From the NCBI GenBank assembly GCA_030077755.1, contig JAQJZZ010000018.1, positions 1,116,001 to 1,180,000 of the forward strand: a stretch of 64,000 bases of DNA, given 5' to 3'. Numbering within the stretch: position 1 is the stretch's first letter; the number at the start of each line of letters is the position of its first letter. Under the pieces are notes generated by a model. That model was not told the origin of the DNA and ran no database searches. It saw only the letters and a program-made list of their open reading frames with translations. The translations under genes and the position numbers were made by a program. Shown piece after piece: positions 19,509-37,145 of the stretch. The DNA comes from Filosporella fistucella (taxonomy: Eukaryota; Ascomycota; Leotiomycetes; Helotiales).

Positions 19509-21737
19509 TTAGCCTAGGATAACCTCTTTCCAAACCGCTCCACCACCGTATGAATCTTGTACCGCCTCCTTCATCACTCTTCCAATCCCAGCTCTTTCCA
19601 CAACCCCACCACTACCTTCAACCTCCTTCACCATCATGACATGATACTCAAGCCAGTCATCGTACCCCCAGCCTTTCTTGTAAGGATGATCTTCATGCGG
19701 CCGTCTCCAATCGCAGTAATAATTAGCATCGCTGAGCAACAGGAATTCATGCTCTATCTCTGGATCAGAATTGTGCCAGCTTTCATCCAAGAGAACGTAG
19801 CCGGAGATAGCAGAGTGACGATTCATGATGAGAAAAACGATACGTCCTCGGGGCTCCCAATTAGGATCCAAGCTCCCGTATTTGAGGTAGCTCCATCTTG
19901 ATGGAGAGATACGAAAGCGAGCTGTGAAGGTGTGGAAGTTGAGAAGAGTAGATAGAGGGATGGTAATATCGGAGGAGGTTTTCAAGTTCTGGGTCATTTC
20001 TCTAACCATGGGGTTGGAGTCAGAAACCCGTTTTCGACCATATGGGTTATCCTGCGTCGAATACATAGCTCGATATCCAATATCATACTTACCCGCAGTT
20101 TCTTTGAGCTCTGGTGGTGGAGTCCAGATGAGAGGTCCCATCCCAGAGGATGAAAATTTTCGCCAATCGATCCAAGTATGTTCCACATGCCACAGAGTCA
20201 CCAGAGTGAGCTCAGTCTCCCGACTGGGGAAGAGTCCGGATGAGGCGAAAGGAGTCGAATCACCCAACCAACGAACCCCTCCGGACCAGCCAGCCCATGA
20301 CCAAGATGGAAATTCAGCGTTGCGTGTTAGCTGTTCAGTAGGTTGCCAGAGTAGAGCCAGGTCGAAGAAAGCTGTTGGAAGACCATAATGTGTCTGTGTT
20401 TTGAGAGCCTTGCTCTGCGCTGAAAGTACGCCGGAAAATGCGTTCAGCTTGTCGGATTGGAATTTCAGGTCACGTACCGTGTACGATCGAACTGCTTGGA
20501 AGTATCTCGACGATGCCGCTGTGTCCACTAGGTCTACTTCTTTCCGTGCATTGACTCGATTTACAAATGTTTGATCTGTCGTTATAGGAAGAGAGCCAAC
20601 TGTATCTTCTGCATAAATTTTCCTGGCGCAGGTGAAGTAGACCTGGTTGTTGACGATGTAGAAGATCCGTGTAGCTAGTTGTTCCTCTTGATAACTACAG
20701 TAATTAGTCATATGTTGTATAGTATCCTTGAATTCTTACGTCCAGCCTCGTGAGGCATATGCCGAACCGTCAATATGCTGTGAGAGAGTGTACTGTGCCA
20801 CCAGTTCCAGGCCAGGAATGACCTCTTTCACATGCTGCTTCGGTAGCCGTCGTTGGGTGATGCCTGGGAGACCAACTTCGAGACAAGCATCATCGACAGC
20901 ACAAACCATTGCAGTCGCTTGGCTGTAAACAAGATCCATGGCATTTATCGCATCCAGCTTTTCGGCGCCGCCATCTTGTACAATACATAGGCTGTCTACC
21001 CAAAGGTATTGTTCCCCTATGCTAGCCGTGAATATTATAGCATCTTGGATGGTTGGAGCAATCTGATTCCAATGCAACTCCAGTCCGCCAGTGTTTGATA
21101 GCTCCATCACATTTGCGGCGTTCATGAGAAACATCTCTTTGGTTCCCCACATGTAACTGAGTGTAAGATACCGACTTCCCGCTGGTGGCTCAATAATGCA
21201 CATATTTTGCACATCAATCAATTTGAACATCGGTGGGACTTGGGTTTTCGCGGCAGCTGAAGGTTGACATCCATGCCCATTCTCACAATCGTTCAGCCAA
21301 CTCCTAGCCATATCAAAATCAACCCTCTCACCCTCAACCCTTCTTGCAACTTGCCAAGGCTCCTTTACATCACCGCTTAACTGCCGAATAAACATATTGT
21401 TTTTCCTCTCATCATCCACTTGGTTGATCGAGATCCATAGACAAGATGCGTTGGAAGTTTCTTCCTGCACCCAGTTCCCCTCAACACGTTGCTTGCTCCA
21501 AGTCGCCCGAGTGACGGGACCATATGGCAATGGGCCAGCTAAATATGCCTCTGCGATGAGCTGACAGAGATTACATTTTGAACTTCGGTCGAACACGTCT
21601 TGGAAGTAGTCAAGCTGATATCTTGGTGACTTTTCGTAAGCAGACCAGGACGTGGGGGTAATATTGAACTGTTGGCATGCTTTACAGAAGGCATTTTGCT
21701 CTTTCGCGATGCTGGCGGCAGGGTGTTTGCCTCCCAT
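19509..21737 (-). CDS. HET-domain (heterokaryon incompatibility) protein, 727 residues
   Basis: complement(join(19509..20694,20740..21737)). The 45-base intron (20695-20739; GTAAGA donor, CTGTAG acceptor) lies inside the conserved RGWT-YQEEQL motif and joins it perfectly. The HET domain (PF06985) is seen as YLTLSYMWG at residues 190-198, QDAI near 231, LWVDSLCIVQD at 245-255, and RGWTYQEE from 331. The N-terminal 180 residues contain CxxC pairs (Cys18/Cys21, Cys55/Cys58) that may bind zinc. The C-terminal half (residues 340-727) is the usual variable region with the FPSWSWAGW motif. HET proteins trigger cell death on non-self recognition; this one has no recognisable partner domain (no NACHT, WD40 or ankyrin). 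It lies about 2 kb from a gasdermin/CHAT pair. It appears intact. Confidence 0.92.
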
Positions 21738-22191
21738 ATAACTTCCAGTGGGGTAGGTGTCTATTTTATGAGGCCCAGTGCTTATCTAGGAGTAGCAGTT
21801 CTGTTGGGTATCATTTTGTATGCGAGCCTGTTCCTGTTCTTCCAACTGTCATTTGACAAGCGAGTTACAGGGATGAATCTTTCACAACCACAGCCACAGC
21901 CATATCTACCAAGATAGATTAATGCTAACAATTTAAAGATATCTATCATGATAATAGAGTCTAAGCAATAGAAAACTCAGAGATTCGCCTCGCTAAGGTG
22001 TTGACATATTCATATATGTGCCTCGATTCACTATCACATGACATATCACGTTATATCTATTTTAAGCCTAGCCGATAACCACTGTGACAACCAACACACC
22101 TCCAAGCTTTCATCTCATCAACCATTTCATTCCACACCCCTGCTTATTTTCATCCAACTTTTTGAGTAGGCAACCTCATCACGTCCATCCA
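21738..22191. other. Intergenic between HET gene and secreted-protein pseudogene
   Basis: Divergent upstream region. No gene seen; the middle is AT-rich. Confidence 0.45.
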
Positions 22192-23895: not shown

Positions 23896-24741
23896 TCATT
23901 TCTCGTCTCTAATCCTTCCGACAACATGGAAGATACCAAATCCCTCCATATCACACGTCTCAACTCCGTCGCCATCCATCAATAGCTCACTAGGCTCAGC
24001 TAGGTTGGCCTCCAACGCATCTTTCGCCCCAGCTGTTGTCGCACCCATAGTCTTCCACATAACCTTCCATCTGTTTCCTTCTTCAAGATACGATTCACCC
24101 ATGTCCTTTGAGGAGAAGAGACTGAATTTGATTTTGCGATACTGAATAGCGTATATCTGCTCGCCTTCTGCTACAAACCCAGTCTCGATGTGCTTCGAGC
24201 TGCGATACTCTGCTAGTAGCTTCAAGTCGCCGGTTCCCGGGTTAAACGCCCCAGCAGCTTTAGTAAGTGGCACATCAACGCTGGCTTTGACGTCTTTCAC
24301 ATCGCTGCCTTCAAGCTCCATACTAGCTTCCGTCAAAGTTTGAATTGCGGTTATCATGTAGACGCCCTTGCGCTTCTTGTATGCGTTCTCGAACCATGTT
24401 CGGGCGGTCTTATCCTTGCACATCGCTGCAAACTTTGCATCTACATTGTCAAGATAATAGGTGATGCAGACAGTGTTGGAAATCTTTGTATCCAGGTCCT
24501 CGGCGTTCTCGAATACGAGGGAAGCGATCGAGGCGAGGACTGCCTCCAGCTTCGTGTTTTTACTCTTGCTTCTAAGAGCGTGGAAGTCGCGGCTAGCCAC
24601 TGAGTAGACATCTCCCTTGAGGAAGCGGCGCTTGGATGTTGGGTAGTAGGAGAATTGTGGCATTTCTACACTCGTAACAAGCCGGCCTAGTTGGACACCT
24701 TCTCGTGGGAACAGGTGACTGTGTACGGTGAGAGGCGCCAT
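23896..24741 (-). CDS. Gasdermin-like pore-forming cell-death protein, 281 residues
   Basis: A single-exon frame from ATG 24741 to TGA 23896. The protein matches what I know of the fungal gasdermin family (RCD-1, HET-Q1) in length, lack of introns and landmark motifs: FPREGVQLGRLVTS at residues 11-24, a YYLDN turn near 95-99, TARTWFENA at 112-120, VYMITAIQT at 127-135, and VAEGEQIYAIQYRKIKF at 190-206. In that family the N-terminal domain of about 230 residues oligomerises into plasma-membrane pores after removal of a C-terminal tail of about 5 kDa. Here the core would end near residue 230 (RWKVMWKT), leaving an acidic tail of about 50 residues, as in HET-Q1. The gene is divergent from a CHAT-protease gene, the kind of partner expected to cleave it. 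Family call is by motif resemblance, not by a search. The gene appears intact, with no sign of RIP. Confidence 0.78.
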   Translation of the reverse strand: MAPLTVHSHLFPREGVQLGRLVTSVEMPQFSYYPTSKRRFLKGDVYSVASRDFHALRSKSKNTKLEAVLASIASLVFENAEDLDTKISNTVCITYYLDNVDAKFAAMCKDKTARTWFENAYKKRKGVYMITAIQTLTEASMELEGSDVKDVKASVDVPLTKAAGAFNPGTGDLKLLAEYRSSKHIETGFVAEGEQIYAIQYRKIKFSLFSSKDMGESYLEEGNRWKVMWKTMGATTAGAKDALEANLAEPSELLMDGDGVETCDMEGFGIFHVVGRIRDEK

Positions 24742-25401
24742 ATTGAGAATTAGTCAAATGGTAGAAAGTTGGCTGATAAATCTACGATCGACCAAAATCT
24801 TGAGATTAGATGTTGTTATAATACTAGCTCGGACGAGATGGAGGCAACAGGCAGATCGTGATCAGTGGTGTGATATATTTGCGGCTTTGTTGTGGCGAGC
24901 TTCACAAACCAGTGACAATGTTTCTCGTACTAGGTATCATGAGAGTTCTCGGGTCGCTCCGCCTGCTCAGTTCCGCCTTCAAATGCCCTTGCCCCCCTCG
25001 CTTGCTTAACCATACCAGATGTCAAAAAGTGGTTGGTGTGGTAGCACTGAGATGCTACTGGTTTACTGGGAGCATATGTTTCACAACGTGCATGAAAGCC
25101 TTGCCAGCAGGATATGAATTTCCGCATTTAAGGCTTAAGTTGTGCTCCGACCATATAAGAATCGTCGTGGAGGAGTTGTCTTCAAGGCATTTTGAGAAGA
25201 AGCCTCCCAAGTGCGCAACATACTGTAGGGAGAATTACATTCTTTGAGGCCATATCTGGAACTGACTGGATTGAGAACCCAACTTATCAGGACGCCCCAT
25301 AATATCTTTGCAACCATTTACCACGGCATTTGCACTTGTTGGGGATTCGAATTGCTGTATTGGCCACCTCGGTCACGGTGGTGACGCTTGGACGTTTTGA
25401 G
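24742..25401. promoter_or_regulatory. Shared divergent promoter of gasdermin-like and CHAT genes
   Basis: About 660 bases separate the two divergent ATGs (24741 on minus, 25402 on plus). No other gene fits here. The head-to-head arrangement suggests co-regulation. TGTTATAATACTAG near 24813-24826 is the most TATA-like element, but I cannot assign transcription starts. Confidence 0.45.
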
Positions 25402-28400
25402 ATGGCTTTGAGCTCTGCTAATATCAACGTCTCTGGCTTGGAGGCATTTGGAGGACCTGCTGAGCTTGACACATACATCACGGTGCTAGATACCCTACTT
25501 ACAAGAGTACATTTGCGAGTTGTGGATGACTATATACTGGTCTGCAAGATCTATGATCAGATAGCCAGACTTTCTCTGCGGAAATGGCACCTGACGGAGG
25601 ATCAGAGCGATCATGATATGGCAACGCGGGCCTTGTATAATCGACAAAATCATGCTAAGGTCATGATGAACCTAGCCGGGGATCTATCAGACCAGTTTGA
25701 GTGTCGCGAGCCCGAAGATGAAGACACAGAAAGTATTGATGACGCTGTCAAAATATGCCATGAAAGTATTCGCATCCTGGGAAATGATGCAGCGGCCATG
25801 AATAGTTTTTCGACCATTCTTTTGACTCGATTCGAAGCGCTAGACGATCCCGCGAACTTGGAATTGGCCACAAACATGGCTGAACAAGCCTGGAAAACCG
25901 ATTCGCAAGGACCATCCACTGCTGTCTATGGATTGAATTACGCAAATTGCCTCCGTCTCCTGTATGAGGGAAATCATCAAAATGAATACATGGCTAAAGC
26001 GATAGAGTTACTTCTGGCAGCGAAAGAAAGTGCGACCACAAACCCTGGTCTACCCACTAATAAGATACTTGCCAATCTAGCACAGGTATTGCATATGCGT
26101 TACGAAGCGCTCGGCGCTGGGCCCGATCTCCACGATGCTATCTCTTACAGCTTGACAGCCCTGGAGCTTTCAAAGAAAGAGCAAGACGATTCGTACCCGG
26201 TAATCGCCAGCAATCTTGCAGGTTATCTTCACTCGTATTATCAAGCTGAACCTAGCGAGGAGAATCTTGCTAATGCTATGTGCATTGCCAGAGATGCTTT
26301 GAAGGCCAATGAAAACAATCCTTCTCAAAAAGTCAACTGCTTGTACAACCTTGCGAGCATGCTGGAAGATGAAGCGAGGCTGCCTCGAGATGATGCATCT
26401 ACCGAGGACCGAATAGCGGCCTTGAACGAAGGAATCTCACTGATAGATGCACCAGGGCAGATAGGAAATCACGACAAAGGATTGGCAGCGAAATGTATGA
26501 ATCTCTTGAGCCGACTCATCAAGCTGCGCTATGAGTTATCAGGCTATAAAGATGTCAAAGAAGTGGCAAATGCAATAACTAAGGCTAAGGCCGCGGTAGA
26601 ATTGTGCAACGAGCGGTCAAATCTGAAAGGGGACTGTTTGGTGCAACTTGGAGATGTGCTCCAACTGAAGTACGAGAAAGATAAGACGGACGACAACTTC
26701 AAAGCAGCCATGTCCGCATTCCATGACTGTGCTCAGATGCAAGATGCTGGGAGACTGATGCGGATTGCTTCCCTTCACAGGGCAGCACTTTTATACACAA
26801 AACGAGAGGAATGGGACAGCGCGGCTACAGGCGCCGAAAAAGCGGTCAACATGCTACCCGATCTCGCCTTCGAGGCTCCTCCAGGTGATGATCAGCAAAA
26901 CGCGTTGAAGGGACTTTCGGGATTATCAGGACTCGCGGCATCTCTGGCGCTCAAGGCTGGCTGGACAGCAGGCAGAGCATTCCAGCTTCTCGAGGCGGGT
27001 CGTGGGATCACATCTATGCGGATCAGCAATTGTAGCCGGACGTTCAATCTCGATCAGGGTGGCCAGACGCTGCTTGAAACTTACGAAAGCCTCCGAAAAG
27101 AATTGGAAACACGACTGACATCTGGCTGGCTGGATATCGGCTACTCTGCCTCTGTCACAAGCGAAATCTCAAAGCGTGCGAAGAATTTTGAGGATGCCAG
27201 GCGACTGCAGGAGAAGCTTCGCGCCGGCTACGGCATCGACTTGGATCCGCGCCTGTCTGAGGAAGACATCATCAATTCAGCGTTACAGGCACCAATTGTC
27301 GCATTTGTGGTCAACGATATACAAAGTGTTGCCTTGATTGCCACAAAATCTGGGATTGACCAAGTGCCATTGCCAGGCCTAGATCTTGCAAGTTGTACCA
27401 AAAATTATATCACGATGCAGCTCCCAGTTACTGGCGCTCTCCGAACCCTTGACTTCGATTCAGCTTACGCAATCAATAAGGATGTGAAAAGTGTGCTAGT
27501 CTGGCTCTGGAATATGGCCGTCAAGCCCGTACTTCAGCACCTTGGATTTCATCGCGTTGAGCGAGTGCAAAACATCTCATCACTGAAATCAACAGATGGG
27601 CTGCCCAGAATCCACTGGATCACATCGGGATTACTGGGCATGATGCCTATCCACGCGGCAGGGAACCATGAATATTCATCGACAGAAAATACCTTGAGCC
27701 ACGTCGTGTCGAGCTACACAGCTACTGTTGTCTCTCTAAGACAGTCAGTTCGCAACGCCACATTTGGACCATTGGCGAGACAGAATCGGGCCTCTGACAT
27801 ACTCAGAGCTGGCATTATTGCAATGCCCACAACACCAGGTGAGGAGTGGCTCGATTTCGATTCTGAGACTGTGCCGAATCATCTAGCCGCCATCAAGCAG
27901 TTTGTCCCAGACAAGCATAATCGAATTCGCCTCGAAAATCCGTCCAGCAGTGCAGCACTTGAAATCCTTGACAAGACAAATATTGTTCATTTCGTCTGCC
28001 ATGCCATTTCGCAGCGAAATCCGTTAAATAGCAGTTTTGTTCTATGCCGACCAGTCGAGCAAAGCAGTGACGGAGACACTGAAAGCCATAACGCCTCAAC
28101 ACCCGTTGATCTCATGCTAGACCCGCTTACCGTGCGCCAGCTCGCATCTCATACCTCGGCTGCGCCACCTGCACGTGTTTTGGCATTCCTTGCAGCGTGC
28201 CAAACAGCTGATATAGGCACCGAGAAAGGGTTGGCAGACGAGAACATCCACCTTGCAGGTGTGCTACAGCTGCTTGGCTTCACAAATGTGATAGGCACTT
28301 TGTGGGAATTGAATGAGGTAGCAGCGGTCGATTTCGCGTTCAAATTCTACTCGGCACTGGCACGGCGGTTTGAAGGCAGCGAGAGTGAGAAAGAAGAGGA

Positions 28401-28506
28401 CACGGATATTGTGGCAAGAGCGGCGCACGATGCAATGCTAGAATTGCGGGCAACTGATCCTGATGATGTAGTGACATGGGCTCCACTGGTATGTTTTGGA
28501 GCATGA
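25402..28506 (+). CDS. TPR-like repeat protein with C-terminal CHAT (caspase-like) protease domain
   Basis: ATG 25402 is the first in-frame ATG of an open frame that begins earlier, and gives 1034 residues without introns. Residues of about 75-570 are all-helical repeats of TPR type, with recurring patterns such as LxxALxxRYExxG, DAISYSLTALELS and NLAxxLHxxY. The C-terminal third is a CHAT domain (PF12770, clan CD, related to caspases and separase). Its catalytic His is His867 in HFVCHA and its catalytic Cys is Cys933 in LAACQTA. It also has IHWITSGLLGMMPIHAAG near 736-753, GFTNVIGTLWEL, and a terminal WAPLVCFGA. Both catalytic residues are present, so the protease is probably active. The repeats likely sense a signal and the CHAT domain cleaves a partner; the divergent gasdermin-like protein is the obvious candidate. 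An upstream exon cannot be excluded. Confidence 0.9.
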   Translation: MALSSANINVSGLEAFGGPAELDTYITVLDTLLTRVHLRVVDDYILVCKIYDQIARLSLRKWHLTEDQSDHDMATRALYNRQNHAKVMMNLAGDLSDQFECREPEDEDTESIDDAVKICHESIRILGNDAAAMNSFSTILLTRFEALDDPANLELATNMAEQAWKTDSQGPSTAVYGLNYANCLRLLYEGNHQNEYMAKAIELLLAAKESATTNPGLPTNKILANLAQVLHMRYEALGAGPDLHDAISYSLTALELSKKEQDDSYPVIASNLAGYLHSYYQAEPSEENLANAMCIARDALKANENNPSQKVNCLYNLASMLEDEARLPRDDASTEDRIAALNEGISLIDAPGQIGNHDKGLAAKCMNLLSRLIKLRYELSGYKDVKEVANAITKAKAAVELCNERSNLKGDCLVQLGDVLQLKYEKDKTDDNFKAAMSAFHDCAQMQDAGRLMRIASLHRAALLYTKREEWDSAATGAEKAVNMLPDLAFEAPPGDDQQNALKGLSGLSGLAASLALKAGWTAGRAFQLLEAGRGITSMRISNCSRTFNLDQGGQTLLETYESLRKELETRLTSGWLDIGYSASVTSEISKRAKNFEDARRLQEKLRAGYGIDLDPRLSEEDIINSALQAPIVAFVVNDIQSVALIATKSGIDQVPLPGLDLASCTKNYITMQLPVTGALRTLDFDSAYAINKDVKSVLVWLWNMAVKPVLQHLGFHRVERVQNISSLKSTDGLPRIHWITSGLLGMMPIHAAGNHEYSSTENTLSHVVSSYTATVVSLRQSVRNATFGPLARQNRASDILRAGIIAMPTTPGEEWLDFDSETVPNHLAAIKQFVPDKHNRIRLENPSSSAALEILDKTNIVHFVCHAISQRNPLNSSFVLCRPVEQSSDGDTESHNASTPVDLMLDPLTVRQLASHTSAAPPARVLAFLAACQTADIGTEKGLADENIHLAGVLQLLGFTNVIGTLWELNEVAAVDFAFKFYSALARRFEGSESEKEEDTDIVARAAHDAMLELRATDPDDVVTWAPLVCFGA

Positions 28507-30996: not shown

Positions 30997-31030
30997 ACAT
31001 ACGACTATAGACTGAGGAGAATGGGGGCTA
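30997..31030 (+). pseudogene. Truncated 5S rRNA fragment (5' end only)
   Basis: ACATACGAC followed by TATAGACTGAGGAGAA matches the first 26 or so bases of the complete 5S gene at 38537 with one substitution, then the similarity fades. The central and 3' parts are missing. It is probably a dispersed 5S pseudogene or a 5S-derived repeat end in AT-rich DNA. Confidence 0.55.
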
Positions 31031-32439
31031 TCTACTCAGTTTTTCGCACATTAGTATCAACAACCTCGAAAATACATATCAGGAGCTCGTATCTAAGATC
31101 GCGCTCGAGTTTCTCTCGCACATGATCTAGGGGCCCCATCCCGATTGTGAGAATCAGGAGCTTAGGTCTTAGATCATTTGCTTAACAATTATTTGAACAC
31201 GACTCGTTGCCATCGTACACTTAGAATGAGATATCGGATTCGTTGGATGGCAACCGGAAGTAACCATTCACAGCCGTCTTCATATTCAGAGCCTTGGCAC
31301 CAATGGAGGCAAGACTGTTCGTGGCATAGGTAGTAATGTAAACTTCAGCATCCATTATTGACGTTTCCAGAATCATTCCATTTAAGTAATAGGGCTATTG
31401 TTTTATTGAATATTAACGAAGACTACGTGAGAGCTAGTCTATACGGTTATAGACTAAGGAAATCTAGATCATGTATTCGACTTTTAATACATCAAAGTTT
31501 TGGAATAGCGATTCCTTAGGGGGTGGAAGTTTAGGGTAGAGTAGAATTAAAATCGCTAGATTTAAAGAAAAAAGCCGTATAGAAACAGCTTAGTAAATTA
31601 AAAAGGGAAATTAAATATAATTAAGTAGAAACTAAATAAAAAGAAAAGCATGGCTGATTTCAAGGTTAAAAAAAATATTAACTTAAACCTACTCTTAGGA
31701 TTCCCATTATTATTTATATAAGATATTACAAATTATTTTATATATCGCCTCGGCTTTAGGGATAAACTAAAAAATCGTAATAGACATCAAAGACATATAA
31801 AAGTATTTATCACGAGCTTGGAAATATACATGCGCTTGGGTTTTGTTGATTTATTCTGCTTCTTGTAGTGAGATAGAGAGAAGGATCCTTGAATGGATAT
31901 GCCCTTGAGCATTTGCTGTCTGCCTAGCGCCCTCTCAGCTGACTCTCTCTCACCACATCCTCTTCGCAAGGTTAAGCTACTCACATATAGCTAGAATCTA
32001 GTCCGCCGTTAAGGCCACCCCATCAGCCACGTTGCAAGGCTTATCAATATGGACAAGTCTAAAATGAATACAGAATCCAACGACTGTGAAGTGGGTATCT
32101 CATGCATTGCATGGAGTTTAGACAATAGCGATCGTTATTCTAAATTTCCCATCTCGAAGATTTGCTGCTGACTTCAAATATGAATCCTCATCCATCTAAA
32201 TCAGACTAACTCGTTCAAATGTATTTATTGAACATTGAAGTTGAGAAGGCACAATTGGAAGTAAGGCGAGGCCGGGTTATAGAGTGATGTTAAAGAACTA
32301 GAGTGTTACATTTAGAATCGAAAAATCCGACGTATCCGGGACAAAAGCGTAAGTAATATCATTCGTAGTATTAACGTTTGAGTAGCAGAGATTAAATTCA
32401 TAGTTGTTGATCGACCCCCCTTTATTATACTAGAACCGT

Positions 32440-33575
32440 TCTCTCTGCTTGCCTAGCAGGCCATGTCTTAAAACTCCGCAAACCACTAAAGGTTTCTCTT
32501 AGCGCTGCCCCCATTAAATCAAGTCCTTTTAATGTCGTTAACATATAGACTATATCTGCTTTAATTATATAACCACTTATGTCTATTGGTATAACTTTCT
32601 CATTAATGGCCGCCCATGACCATAAAGGAGCTCAATAGATAGCAGGTTTTAAATATTATCCTATGGTAAACTCCTTTGAACTAATAGAGACCTTCCGGTA
32701 AGTCCTCTTCCCATAGTCCGGCAATGTAGTAACCACCAGTAAACTATTCCCGCTCGTGCGTAATGCCCGATATGGCTAGTAATCTATTACTCTCATAGCT
32801 CGATTCTCGAGTTAAATAGTCCGTGACAATGAAGAAAGCTAGTTACTCTCGAGAATAAGATCCCGGGATAGAGGAGCTTTACCTTGGGTCTGCTCACTCC
32901 CCGCAGGAGGGTCTAGCCATTCCTTGAACCCACTCCCAAAATAGATATAGTCGCCATAAGGATAATACATCTATACCGAGGCGAGAGAATGTCTTCCTGG
33001 AACGTCTATGCTCTTGTTCTAAGGATAGAACTCTGCTCACTGCTAATGATATTATTGACTGGCTGGTTAGTAAAGTATAGTATAGAATTTCCAGGTTTAC
33101 GGAGATCGACCTTTTAATATTAAAGCCGATTTATGTCGAATTATCTCTTTTTGAATAGTCCCTGGGCACTTTGAATACCAGCTCCAATAGTGAGCTAGCT
33201 TGAGTTATAATAAGATCCTATTTTGACCGAATCTATAACCCAATTTAGCTCTAGCCCTTGTAAGATATATAAAGAACTAATCCACATATATTATAGGCCG
33301 ATTGCCCTTGTGATTTTGATAGCATCTTGGAACATCGGCAGAAGGCTAGAAATATTTATGTATTCTTTTCGGGCATTCAGATTGTTATTAATTATTTTAT
33401 ACTCGCTGCTTGTGGTGTCCCATCTATGACTGAGGCAGACATAGCGTCCTCTCTGCTCACTCTCACACCTCGGAGCTTCCGAAAAGTCTCTAAGGTGAAT
33501 AGTTGGTAATTGACTGTGCCTAACATTGATTAGGCGTTTTAGTAAAACTTTCCACTGCTCAAAATCTTCTTCCAT
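32440..33575 (-). pseudogene. RIP-decayed HET-domain gene
   Basis: On the minus strand, 33575-33291 encodes a recognisable HET-domain start: RYVCLSHRWD, then LLPMFQDAIKITRAIGL. The following sequence continues the family pattern but with stop codons, for example a TAA just after IGL, then a degenerate WISSLYILQ in place of WVDSLCIxQD, then SYYNSS and TIGAG. Further on, in changing frames, come LLAISGIT, AGLWEED and an APLWSWAAINEKVIPID run, all typical of the C-terminal half of HET proteins. The changes are largely C-to-T/G-to-A type, fitting RIP. It is not a functional gene. Confidence 0.65.
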
Positions 33576-34804
33576 ATACTCTATAGTTCGATATGAGCTA
33601 AGATCAATTTATATAATTGGCAATGATTACTTGCTGCCACTTTTGCTGCAGCAATAGTATGAAGCCTATATCCGCCAGCGGATATCAATGCCTGCATCTC
33701 TTATTATATAATTTTAAAAATATTTTACAAGTTATTTTAATAATATATACTATAATATATTATGCTTGATAACTATATGTATTAATATTAAATATTAATA
33801 TTTAAGGTTAATTTAATTAGTTTACTTTATGTATAATAAGAAGTAAAGCATTTGTGATTATTTTTTTCTTATTTGTATTAAGAATATAAGATTAATTATT
33901 AAGTATTATAAATTAGTAAACGTTATTGATCCTTCCAGGAATTCTTCCTTACATTCCATAGAAGCATACAACCACGTGAATCTTAACCTTATTCTGTGTC
34001 TCGACTTATAACAGATTGCAAACAATGTCTTGCTCTTGTGACATGTCAAGAAAACACCAACACCAGGCGGCGCGCAGCACAACGCAGTATTCTTGTTGTG
34101 CCTTGGTGTCTGCTTAACTCTATCGCCACGATCTTCGAATAGTATCTATCTTCTTCTCAATACTACACGACCTGAGCGCTTCATTGGTTGAACTTCATCC
34201 CTACTACTTGTACCCTAGCGTCGTCCTTGTCTGGCATGTCGTACCACCATTTCCCTCCATCTTCACATACAATAATAGATGGCAGCAACAAAGTTTCAGG
34301 ACTAAACTAAATTTTTTTAATAGCACTGGTTTATCAAAATCGCCTTATTGGTATCCAGCCACCTTCCAGACTAAAATGCCAAACTAAACTATCTCCTCCG
34401 AGCTATTCCCTCTAATAGATTCCCGGAAAACGACTTGCCATAGCGTCTTAAAGATCGCTACCACCTCTTCGACTCGTGATCAAGCTATAACCCGCACATA
34501 TTTATTCCGAAAGTGCTTAAGGCCCAATAAATGTGGAGTGAAAAGCAGCTGGGAAAGCCAATAAAGCTCGAATTATATCGAATTTGAAAACGGAATATAG
34601 TGAGATTTCTTAGCACTGGATATATGAAAATATCAGGGCCTATACATCTCAGGCATAACTAATTATACACAATTATGGTTCTAACTTAATTGATATGTGG
34701 CTGCAATTGTTTCTTTATTTTCGTTTTCAGCACAGCCATTTTAACAAATCGAGCTCGCAGTATGCTCTCCTAGATACCGAAATCAATACTTGCATCACCG
34801 ACTC

Positions 34805-37145
34805 TCATTGAGATTCTGCCAAGTCTGCGAATGGATCCCCATCTGATCCACTGTCTGAGACTGAGAAAGCATCAGAAATACAACAGTCCCCACACAACGG
34901 ATGTCCCCTCCCAGTCTCCCAATCTTGGTAGCTGGAAAGCTTATTGTACAATTCACTTGTTCGTGGACGTGCATCGGGACTCTCTTTCAGTAGGTCAAGT
35001 ACACAATCCGCAAGAAATGAATCAGATTTCTGGCTCTGATCAATTTGGCGGAGCTGCTCGACCCAGTCTTGGATACTAGATATATTCCGATAGAATCGGA
35101 TGCTATCTGTGCGTTGTTTGAAGTATTCATGTAGTTCTTTAATAGTACGGTTCTTAATCAAGGTTAACATCTCGAAAAAAACGCAACCTAAAGACCACAC
35201 ATCTGCTGAGGTGTTACGTTTTCCGGAGGCCGCAACTTCGGGTGCACAATAGAGCGGGGTCTTTGCGGAATCTTCGGTTGTGGTGCTTCTAGAGAGATTT
35301 TCCCAGTCTAGAGATATACCAAAGTCTGTGAGATACACATCGTTCCCTTTAACTAATATGTTCTGGGGTTTAATGTCGCGATGTCGAATCTTGGATTCGT
35401 GAAGGAAGTTCAGTGCACCAGCGAGGCAGCCGAAAAATGATCGGAGGAGTGGAGCTTTCTCAGAGGTTACACCCTCGTAGAATGTATTCAGGTCATAATC
35501 CGCCACAGGTTCCATGATTATTCCAAAGTATTTTGGGTCCGTGTAGCTGGAAATCTGTTCTATAATTTAGCTATTTGGTATTCCCAAGCCATCGTTAGGC
35601 ACTCTCCATAGATGGTGTACTCACGAACGCAACACAGTGTGTGTGACGGAGACGCTTCAAGATTTTAACCTCATTCATGAAACTTTCCAGCTCGGCCTTG
35701 CGTAATTTTCCCCTTCGGAATCTCTTTCTCGCAAATTCTCGACCACATAAGCTCAAGATTTTATCCACCGAGCTATATCTACCCTCGCCAAGTAGCTTCA
35801 CGGACTGCAAAGGAAAAGGGTCGGCTCGAGTGAAATGAGCATGTTCTCCAGTTTTGCCTTCTAATCGAAGTGCTTTACTTAGGACGAGGTTTTGGGTCGT
35901 TATAAATTCTGCATGATGACTTACGCTAAGCGCAGGCGGAAGAGAGGACTTGGTTAGTGGTAACCAGCGATCGTTTATGCCATGGTTGTGAAATTCGTCG
36001 AGGACATGCAATTGGCCAATCAACCGTAATATTATATATATTCTCGGCGCCTGACTCCAAGAGACTTTTCCTCCTTCCCGTAATAGACGAGCGATATCCT
36101 GGCACTGAGAATCCGTAAAATGGGTAGTGTCTCCCATGAGTGGGAAGTAATCTGCCAATTTCCAAACCCTAGAGGTAGCGTTTGTAATTAAGGGATGTGG
36201 CATCTCAGGAACCAGCACCGCTACCGATATCTGTAGAAACACGTTTGTCAGGAATCAGAGCGTTTTATTAGGCAAAGTGCGTCACGATACCTGAGGGGAC
36301 ACATTTGCATCCGGAAGCTGAGCCCCGGGCGATATTTGAGACTGCTGTTCTGCTAGTGAACTGCCCTCCCATGTATCAAGTGGTATTGATTCTGCTCGCA
36401 TCGTTACAGAGGATTTATCTGTTTTATGAGACAGGAATGGAGAATGTGTATCGTTCAACGGTTCTTGATAATCCTTCCGATGTATGGGTGCGTCTTTCTG
36501 GAGGTCTTCCGTTGGCCCAGGTTCACCCTTGATGACGAGACTAGGCAACTTCGCTGGTATGTATGAAGGATCGAGATCATTAATATTTGGAATTGCAGAT
36601 GTCCAGCCCCGAGCTTCTATATTTCTTCTGTATGATATATCCTCCTTAGAAAGTAAAAGGGCGACCTGTGTTGCTGCATATTGCACTGTGTTCCTCACAT
36701 GTTAACCGACGAGGTATGGTAAACAAAAGATTTTATGAACATGATGTCCTTACCTCTGAACACCACCTTATCATCATCATGGCTAAAATACTGTAATGCC
36801 TTAATCGAATACAAATTCTTCATCGCCCACTCAACACAATTCTCATTACCGAACCACAGCAGGTATTCTATGACCACAAGGGTATTGAAATAACACCTCC
36901 AATTTTTACTTGTAGCTTGCAATTCCTTCTGGAGGAAGTCCATGGTCTCCTGGTACTGATGCGTTGAAGCATTCGTTTGTGCCACAATTCTTGACAGTAG
37001 GGATTTGGTTGGACTGTGTGGCTTGTTAGCAGCCGCTATCCTCAAAAATTAGTCTATTCTCTTGAGATATCTTGATCCGGTCAAACCCACCTTTTGAGAC
37101 TTCGATCTCTGTTTCATTACAAGCACTGGTGGGTTTCAGCATCAT
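34805..37145 (-). CDS. ENTH-domain / Ser-Thr protein kinase fusion, 695 residues
   Basis: complement(join(34805..35554,35625..36230,36291..36685,36754..37035,37091..37145)). All four introns have GT...AG ends and the total is 2088 bases. Residues of about 13-150 resemble an ENTH domain (epsin type): EIEVSKAA, SPTKSLLSRIVAQTN, KNWRCYFNTLVVIEYLLWFGNENC and KNLYSIKALQYF. A linker of about 100 residues follows. Residues of about 245-380 are a helical region found before the catalytic domain in related fungal kinases. The kinase domain has glycine loop GEGRYSSV (392-399), Lys413, Glu431, HRD with Asp506 in IRHRDIKPQNIL, DFG with Asp523, and APE near 551-553, so it should be active. ENTH domains bind phosphoinositides at endocytic membranes, which would place the kinase there; that is inference. 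ENTH fused to a kinase is unusual. The start could be the ATG three bases later. Confidence 0.78.

Follow-up and report, generated by a model that had tools for sequence, protein, structure and literature searches.

A divergent gasdermin-family and TPR-like/CHAT protease gene pair in Filosporella fistucella, a probable two-gene cell-death module

Two intact, divergently transcribed genes

A 64-kb stretch of the Filosporella fistucella genome (C16:1116001-1180000, in a genome of 45.8 Mb and 19 contigs; hereafter, the window) carries two genes placed head to head, each a single unbroken open reading frame (ORF), encoding a protein of 281 amino acids (aa) on the minus strand and one of 1034 aa on the plus strand. 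We conclude that this pair is very probably a fungal two-gene cell-death module, in which a CHAT sensor-protease would activate a gasdermin by cleavage of its tail. Underlying this conclusion are the gene structure, protein families, predicted folds, intact catalytic residues and head-to-head linkage documented below. Because CHAT-gasdermin clusters have been published, the window pair is a further case of an arrangement already described in fungi, and a well-supported new example of it. Features are given by window position and strand, with supporting evidence in brackets.

23896..24741, minus: gasdermin-family gene, 281 aa (single ORF, RCD-1-1 profile, Foldseek, VIA-align, 25 homologs)
24040..24741, minus: predicted pore-forming core, residues 1-234 (VIA-align against RCD-1-2, charge)
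23899..24039, minus: acidic C-terminal tail, residues 235-281, a candidate inhibitory segment (beyond the RCD-1-aligned core; charge, conservation, family trend)
24742..25401, no strand: upstream region common to both start codons, 660 bp
25402..28506, plus: TPR-like/CHAT protease gene, 1034 aa (single ORF, PF12770, 24 homologs, predicted model)
25453..27108, plus: all-helical TPR-like superhelix, residues 18-569, a putative sensor
27496..28500, plus: CHAT caspase-like domain, residues 699-1033
28000..28002, plus: catalytic His867 codon (alignment A2, own-genome CHATs)
28198..28200, plus: catalytic Cys933 codon (alignment A2, own-genome CHATs)

An earlier note, made from the sequence alone, had proposed this pair, and the ORF listing bears out its coordinates, strands, sizes and 660-base spacer, which has a G+C content of 0.46. 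Homologs of the gasdermin number 25 proteins at E <= 0.001, the closest spanning 98-100% of the 281-aa protein; the CHAT protein has at least 24 among the best 7990 candidates scored, the ten closest spanning 60-100%. Because homologs cover them so widely, both ORFs are real genes and not chance. That both are intact, as the earlier note held, agrees with their uninterrupted frames. Its claim that neither shows repeat-induced point mutation (RIP) fits the unremarkable indices of the gasdermin gene (TpA/ApT 0.84, (CpA+TpG)/(ApC+GpT) 1.19) and the CHAT gene (0.51 and 1.70, respectively), which the usual cut-offs place outside the RIP-mutated range.

The 1034-aa protein is a likely CHAT protease

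The CHAT family PF12770 matched the 1034-aa protein with an E-value of 1.3e-28 and 100.8 bits, against a Pfam cut-off of 24. It was the sole Pfam family at E <= 1, so the S8 subtilase that characterizes the HET-Q system was not found here. Pfam TPR families gave no match, but the predicted model (predicted local distance difference test, pLDDT, 80.8; predicted template modelling score, pTM, 0.76) contains a helical superhelix matching the TPR chains of LGN, which supports the earlier description of a repeat protein with a CHAT domain. This predicted TPR-like superhelix supplies the kind of repeat superstructure (TPR/ANK/WD40) looked for in a partner protease, and the predicted fold also matches Craspase TPR-CHAT and separase.

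His867 and Cys933 are invariant across the 19 rows of alignment A2. Among the CHATs of the same genome the catalytic Cys is present in 10/10 and the His in 9/10, that of C4:712k sitting in a separate upstream ORF. By sequence, then, the protein is likely a caspase-related protease with its catalytic residues intact and a predicted activity. A CHAT fragment at C10:336k (L022:4210-4959, minus), in which Tyr replaces the catalytic His, is possibly a pseudo-protease.

A gasdermin fold is predicted for the 281-aa protein

No entry of Pfam, NCBIfam or PADLOC names the 281-aa protein, and a single-sequence search of the PDB likewise gave no gasdermin match, yet profile and fold comparisons back the earlier term gasdermin-like. 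Pfam gave a single row for it, to a histidine-kinase sensor domain (E 0.1), which fell under the cut-off and was rejected. Alignment A1 holds the window gasdermin family and A3 is a broader profile of 18 rows including the window protein. The earlier note had proposed a profile check against RCD-1 and a structure prediction; searched against the PDB, A3 returned RCD-1-1 as its top match (E 0.0018), and hhalign of A3 against an RCD-1-type gasdermin of the same genome (C7:4576k) gave a probability of 88%. With the predicted model as query, Foldseek ranks 1-26 were all gasdermin entries and the first 23 VIA-align rows were gasdermins; on RCD-1-2, model residues 6-224 were aligned. A gasdermin N-terminal fold is therefore predicted, at low confidence, and by analogy the protein would form pores and be cytotoxic.

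An acidic tail extends beyond the core

About 57 residues of the window protein extend past the RCD-1-aligned core, and they are acidic: at pH 7 residues 1-234 carry a charge of about +4.9 and residues 235-281 about -7.5. The last 50 residues have a net charge of -5 or lower in 8/8 complete own-genome gasdermins (one exactly -5; the C6 gasdermin, at 0, stands outside this count) and in 42/46 gasdermin homologs, which are mutually non-independent. The same charge occurs in 0/24 CHAT proteins and in 8/75 other ORFs with 230 codons or more from the extracted DNA, a rough control in which many ORFs are probably non-coding and from which the C6 gasdermin ORF was not taken out. The charge rule is uneven, the sequence preceding those 50 residues being neutral or negative in 23/46 homologs and not higher in charge than the tail in 9/46. 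The conservation profile was made without P0021, P0022, P0024 and P0025, and P0023 was never in A1. As a hypothesis from sequence, the tail is a candidate inhibitory segment and may act as an electrostatic clamp; we infer a cleavage region between residues ~229 and ~258. In the source consulted on acidic tails of fungal gasdermins, "acidic" is used of lipids, and we make no claim that the tail is unpublished.

Gasdermin-protease pairing recurs in this genome and in other species

A PF12770 search of the genome identified at least 10 CHAT loci. With the gasdermin profile, a divergent gasdermin-like ORF was found adjoining 7 of the 10, and an eighth pair, at C6:310k, came to light with the broader profile (E 2.2e-4) as well as with a query of the whole genome (E 4.5e-5), making 8/10 CHAT loci with such a neighbour. 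Beside the window pair these are the divergent pairs at L015, L016, L017, L021, L023, L024 and L027/L020. The C6:310k gasdermin-like gene (L027:6532-7652, minus) has an interrupted frame, from introns or decay. No gasdermin was found near the two other CHAT loci, C6:648k and C10:336k. All eight paired CHATs retain the catalytic His and Cys.

Nine genome-wide gasdermin queries, two of them at looser E-value limits, yielded nine loci in all, and 9/9 lie close to a protease gene (8 CHAT, 1 S8). The ninth, C7:4576k-4581k, was found with an RCD-1 fragment query (E 0.011; RCD-1-2 match E 7.3e-6) and pairs an RCD-1-type gasdermin (L040:1568-2422, minus) with a TPR-S8 subtilase (L040:3562-6340, plus), overturning the notion that every gasdermin of this genome is CHAT-linked. 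A small ORF between these two genes (L040:2613-3173, minus) resembles a membrane protein. S8 matches numbered 27, at 22 distinct loci; 13 of these 22 were examined over ~3-5 kb each side, and one has a gasdermin. In all nine pairs gasdermin and protease are divergently transcribed from opposite strands, and the pairing in this genome is not chance.

The protease architectures differ. CHAT is C-terminal at C16, C9, C3, C4:457k, C1 and C6:314k; Pfam TPR matches are weak or barely exceed the cut-off at C9, C3, C4:457k and C6:314k, and C1 has none. The pair at C9 is separated by a 557-codon ORF, on the same strand as CHAT, which is perhaps the N-terminal part of the CHAT gene. At C10:1210k and C4:712k an N-terminal CHAT is followed by a NACHT-type ATPase stretch (E 4.2e-4 and 1.0e-5, below the Pfam cut-off), an architecture that by sequence is NLR-like. 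The C1 gasdermin has a match to a Leptodontidium protein at the level of 56% identity, 89% in the first exon, in keeping with a host among the Leotiomycetes.

Linkage in other species was judged by equally long contigs among the ten nearest CHAT homologs (P0026-P0035, six of them bearing fungal names), and at least 4/10 are linked to a gasdermin homolog:

Orbilia brochopaga: TWF696_007563/007564, consecutive locus tags
Beauveria bassiana: BBAD15_g5118/g5117, consecutive locus tags
Fusarium austroafricanum: gasdermin and CHAT homologs on equally long contigs
Fusarium beomiforme: gasdermin and CHAT homologs on equally long contigs

Together with the 8/10 own-genome CHAT loci, this answers the linkage check in relatives that the earlier note had proposed: as in a two-gene cluster, the protease gene lies within 10 kb and the linkage is conserved.

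A proposed mechanism and its alternatives

We propose that the TPR-like superhelix would restrain the CHAT cysteine protease at the C-terminus, and that on sensing a non-self or danger signal it would release CHAT. Active CHAT would then cut the 281-aa gasdermin between the core (~1-234) and the acidic tail, within the region given above. With its tail lost, the core would bind the plasma membrane and assemble a pore, and such pores would kill the hyphal compartment. The cleavage, pore and death steps are modelled on the published scheme for fungal gasdermins; the trigger, the cut site, inhibition by the tail and the choice of this gasdermin as substrate are likewise inferred.

Several points weigh against this interpretation. 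The sequence similarity to RCD-1, at the E-value given, is weak, and A1 alone reached an hhalign probability of 17% when compared with the RCD-1-type gasdermin at C7:4576k. The 281-aa protein was modelled with low confidence (pLDDT 51.7, pTM 0.53), and for models of this kind the fold tool cautions that matches may be meaningless. Since 7 of the 9 genome queries derived from CHAT-linked gasdermins, protease-free gasdermins could be missed. Tree distances of gasdermin and CHAT are correlated over 10 pairs (Mantel r 0.856, with 2 of 10,000 permutations as high; computed without the C4:714k and C6:310k pairs, whose genes are split or incomplete), but this result leans on other-species orthologs, which had been picked for being linked, because the six own-genome pairs alone give r 0.453, short of significance (a value as high arose in 93 of 720 permutations).

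The alternative we take most seriously, at perhaps one chance among several, is that the two genes form an allorecognition (heterokaryon incompatibility) locus, whose proteins or their alleles bring death only on fusion of unlike strains. The het-Q1/het-Q2 and rcd-1 systems are described as being of this kind (PMC12881547, PMC10989679), and one A. fumigatus hetB idiomorph is reported to encode a large CHAT protease (PMC11138114). Here, however, a single haplotype carries both genes in intact form, and related pairs are kept across species, whereas het-Q1 and het-Q2 are idiomorphs. The HET-domain ORF nearby (20736-21785) could be counted in favour of allorecognition but says little, since fungi of this kind carry many HET genes. 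It is unlikely that the CHAT protein cuts some other substrate and that the neighbours share merely a promoter or a genomic habit: cleavage of a gasdermin by CHAT is a prediction and two of the 10 CHAT loci have no gasdermin found nearby, but every gasdermin locus found lies near a protease gene, CHAT in eight cases, and linkage recurs in four other species.

Two further possibilities concern the gasdermin itself. Its pore might serve regulated secretion or the sealing of compartments and not death, a role that PMC12881547 poses as a question for future work; the characterized fungal gasdermins HET-Q1 and RCD-1 are reported to kill cells (PMC12881547, PMC10197012, PMC10989679), and we regard such a role as quite improbable. 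That the 281-aa protein is a MACPF-type pore-former resembling a gasdermin, or an unrelated alpha/beta protein, seems to us very improbable given the profile and fold matches, even with no Pfam match above cut-off, a model of low confidence and one distant homolog, P0063, bearing a MACPF name in its source. A cell-death module activated by tail cleavage remains the reading we favour.

Relation to described systems

The novelty implied by the earlier note does not stand, as CHAT-gasdermin two-gene clusters are already published (PMC10197012, PMC12881547, PMC10989679). According to one of these sources, ~80% of fungal gasdermin genes cluster with protease genes, ~63% S8 and ~19% CHAT, and the partners include dozens of NLR or NLR-like proteins with a CHAT domain (PMC10197012); a second review gives about 60% S8 and 17% CHAT (PMC10989679). 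The proteases of fungal gasdermin/CHAT clusters are termed "Q2-like" (Clave et al. 2022, via PMC10197012, PMC12881547 and PMC10989679), and a TPR-bearing CHAT protease of a P. anserina two-gene cluster is reported to activate its gasdermin (PMC12881547). The window pair resembles such clusters in setting a gasdermin with a short C-terminal tail beside a multidomain protease with TPR-type repeats and CHAT, and we found no difference in kind. The proportion differs from the reviews, with 8/9 gasdermins CHAT-linked here, which may be bias from the mostly CHAT-linked queries and from a survey covering 13 of the 22 S8 loci.

HET-Q1 of P. anserina, at 278 aa, is nearly equal in length to the window gasdermin, and its protease is reported to remove 40 C-terminal residues (PMC10989679); the window partner, in contrast, is a CHAT protein and not a subtilase, and het-Q1 and het-Q2 are described as idiomorphs at one locus (PMC12881547), whereas the window genes stand together in one haplotype. 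RCD-1-1 and RCD-1-2 of Neurospora crassa are described as having no inhibitory C-terminal domain and being active only with both variants present, unlike the window protein with its ~57 extra residues. Craspase TPR-CHAT (Csx29) and separase share 12-14% identity with the window CHAT protein in aligned parts, and its score against the Csx29 family NF041237 of NCBIfam was 21.7 bits against a cut-off of 300. A. fumigatus hetB is similar as a large fungal CHAT protease tied to incompatibility but differs in that, in the part of PMC11138114 available to us, its substrate is not known and no gasdermin partner is shown.

Origin of the TPR-CHAT sensor

A mixture-model tree built on CHAT domains joins the 11 rows treated as fungal and one metagenome row in one clade (100/100), and it did not uphold the mixing of bacterial with fungal CHATs in a FastTree analysis. 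Window-type TPR-CHATs group with C9, C3, C4a and the metagenome row, adjoining bacterial TPR-CHATs, and the C1/C6 CHATs of the same fungus stand apart (99/99) on long branches. Without the metagenome row, the tree with a fungal clade ranks below the best one yet is not rejected (p-AU 0.38). The best 80 of at least 512 confirmed prokaryotic loci (L044-L123) are actinobacterial, with 24-31% identity that in most cases extends across the greater part of the protein; a search near those 80 TPR-CHAT loci gave no gasdermin-like ORF (best E 5.2). These sequence comparisons raise the possibility of a cross-kingdom origin for the TPR-CHAT sensor.

Surroundings of the pairs

In the window, the HET-domain ORF (minus strand; PF06985, E 1.7e-23) lies ~2 kb from the gasdermin gene and is followed in the same frame by a 408-codon ORF without Pfam match (19509-20735). 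Positions 31000-35000 are AT-rich (G+C 0.37-0.39 in 2-kb windows), and at 32-34 kb TpA/ApT is about 1.0, mildly RIP-like. Elsewhere, a 292-codon ORF at C6:648k (L019:19-894, minus), divergent from CHAT and without Pfam match, is a candidate non-gasdermin partner, with a HET gene beyond it (L030:5060-7294). Next to the C6 gasdermin-CHAT pair lie ORFs encoding HET, NPHP3_N (NTPase) and ankyrin domains (L027:2808-5867, minus), and the L016 pair (C3:4000-13900) is no more than ~13 kb from the end of its contig and may be subtelomeric.

Implications

The window offers a CHAT-gasdermin pair that is intact and has relatives in Hypocreales and Orbilia, in a genome whose nine gasdermin-protease pairs so far, with three protease architectures, form a test set for the wiring of executioner to sensor. 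More speculatively, and with considerable doubt, the widespread acidic tail could be an interchangeable electrostatic clamp holding fungal gasdermins off, the same executioner being couplable to the TPR-CHAT, CHAT-NACHT and TPR-subtilase partners found in one genome; to this would be added the cross-kingdom origin raised for the TPR-CHAT sensor half, whose lineage appears nearer to actinobacterial TPR-CHAT than to this fungus's other CHAT lineage. A common acidic tail, if true, would give a simple and testable answer to what inhibits fungal gasdermins before cleavage.
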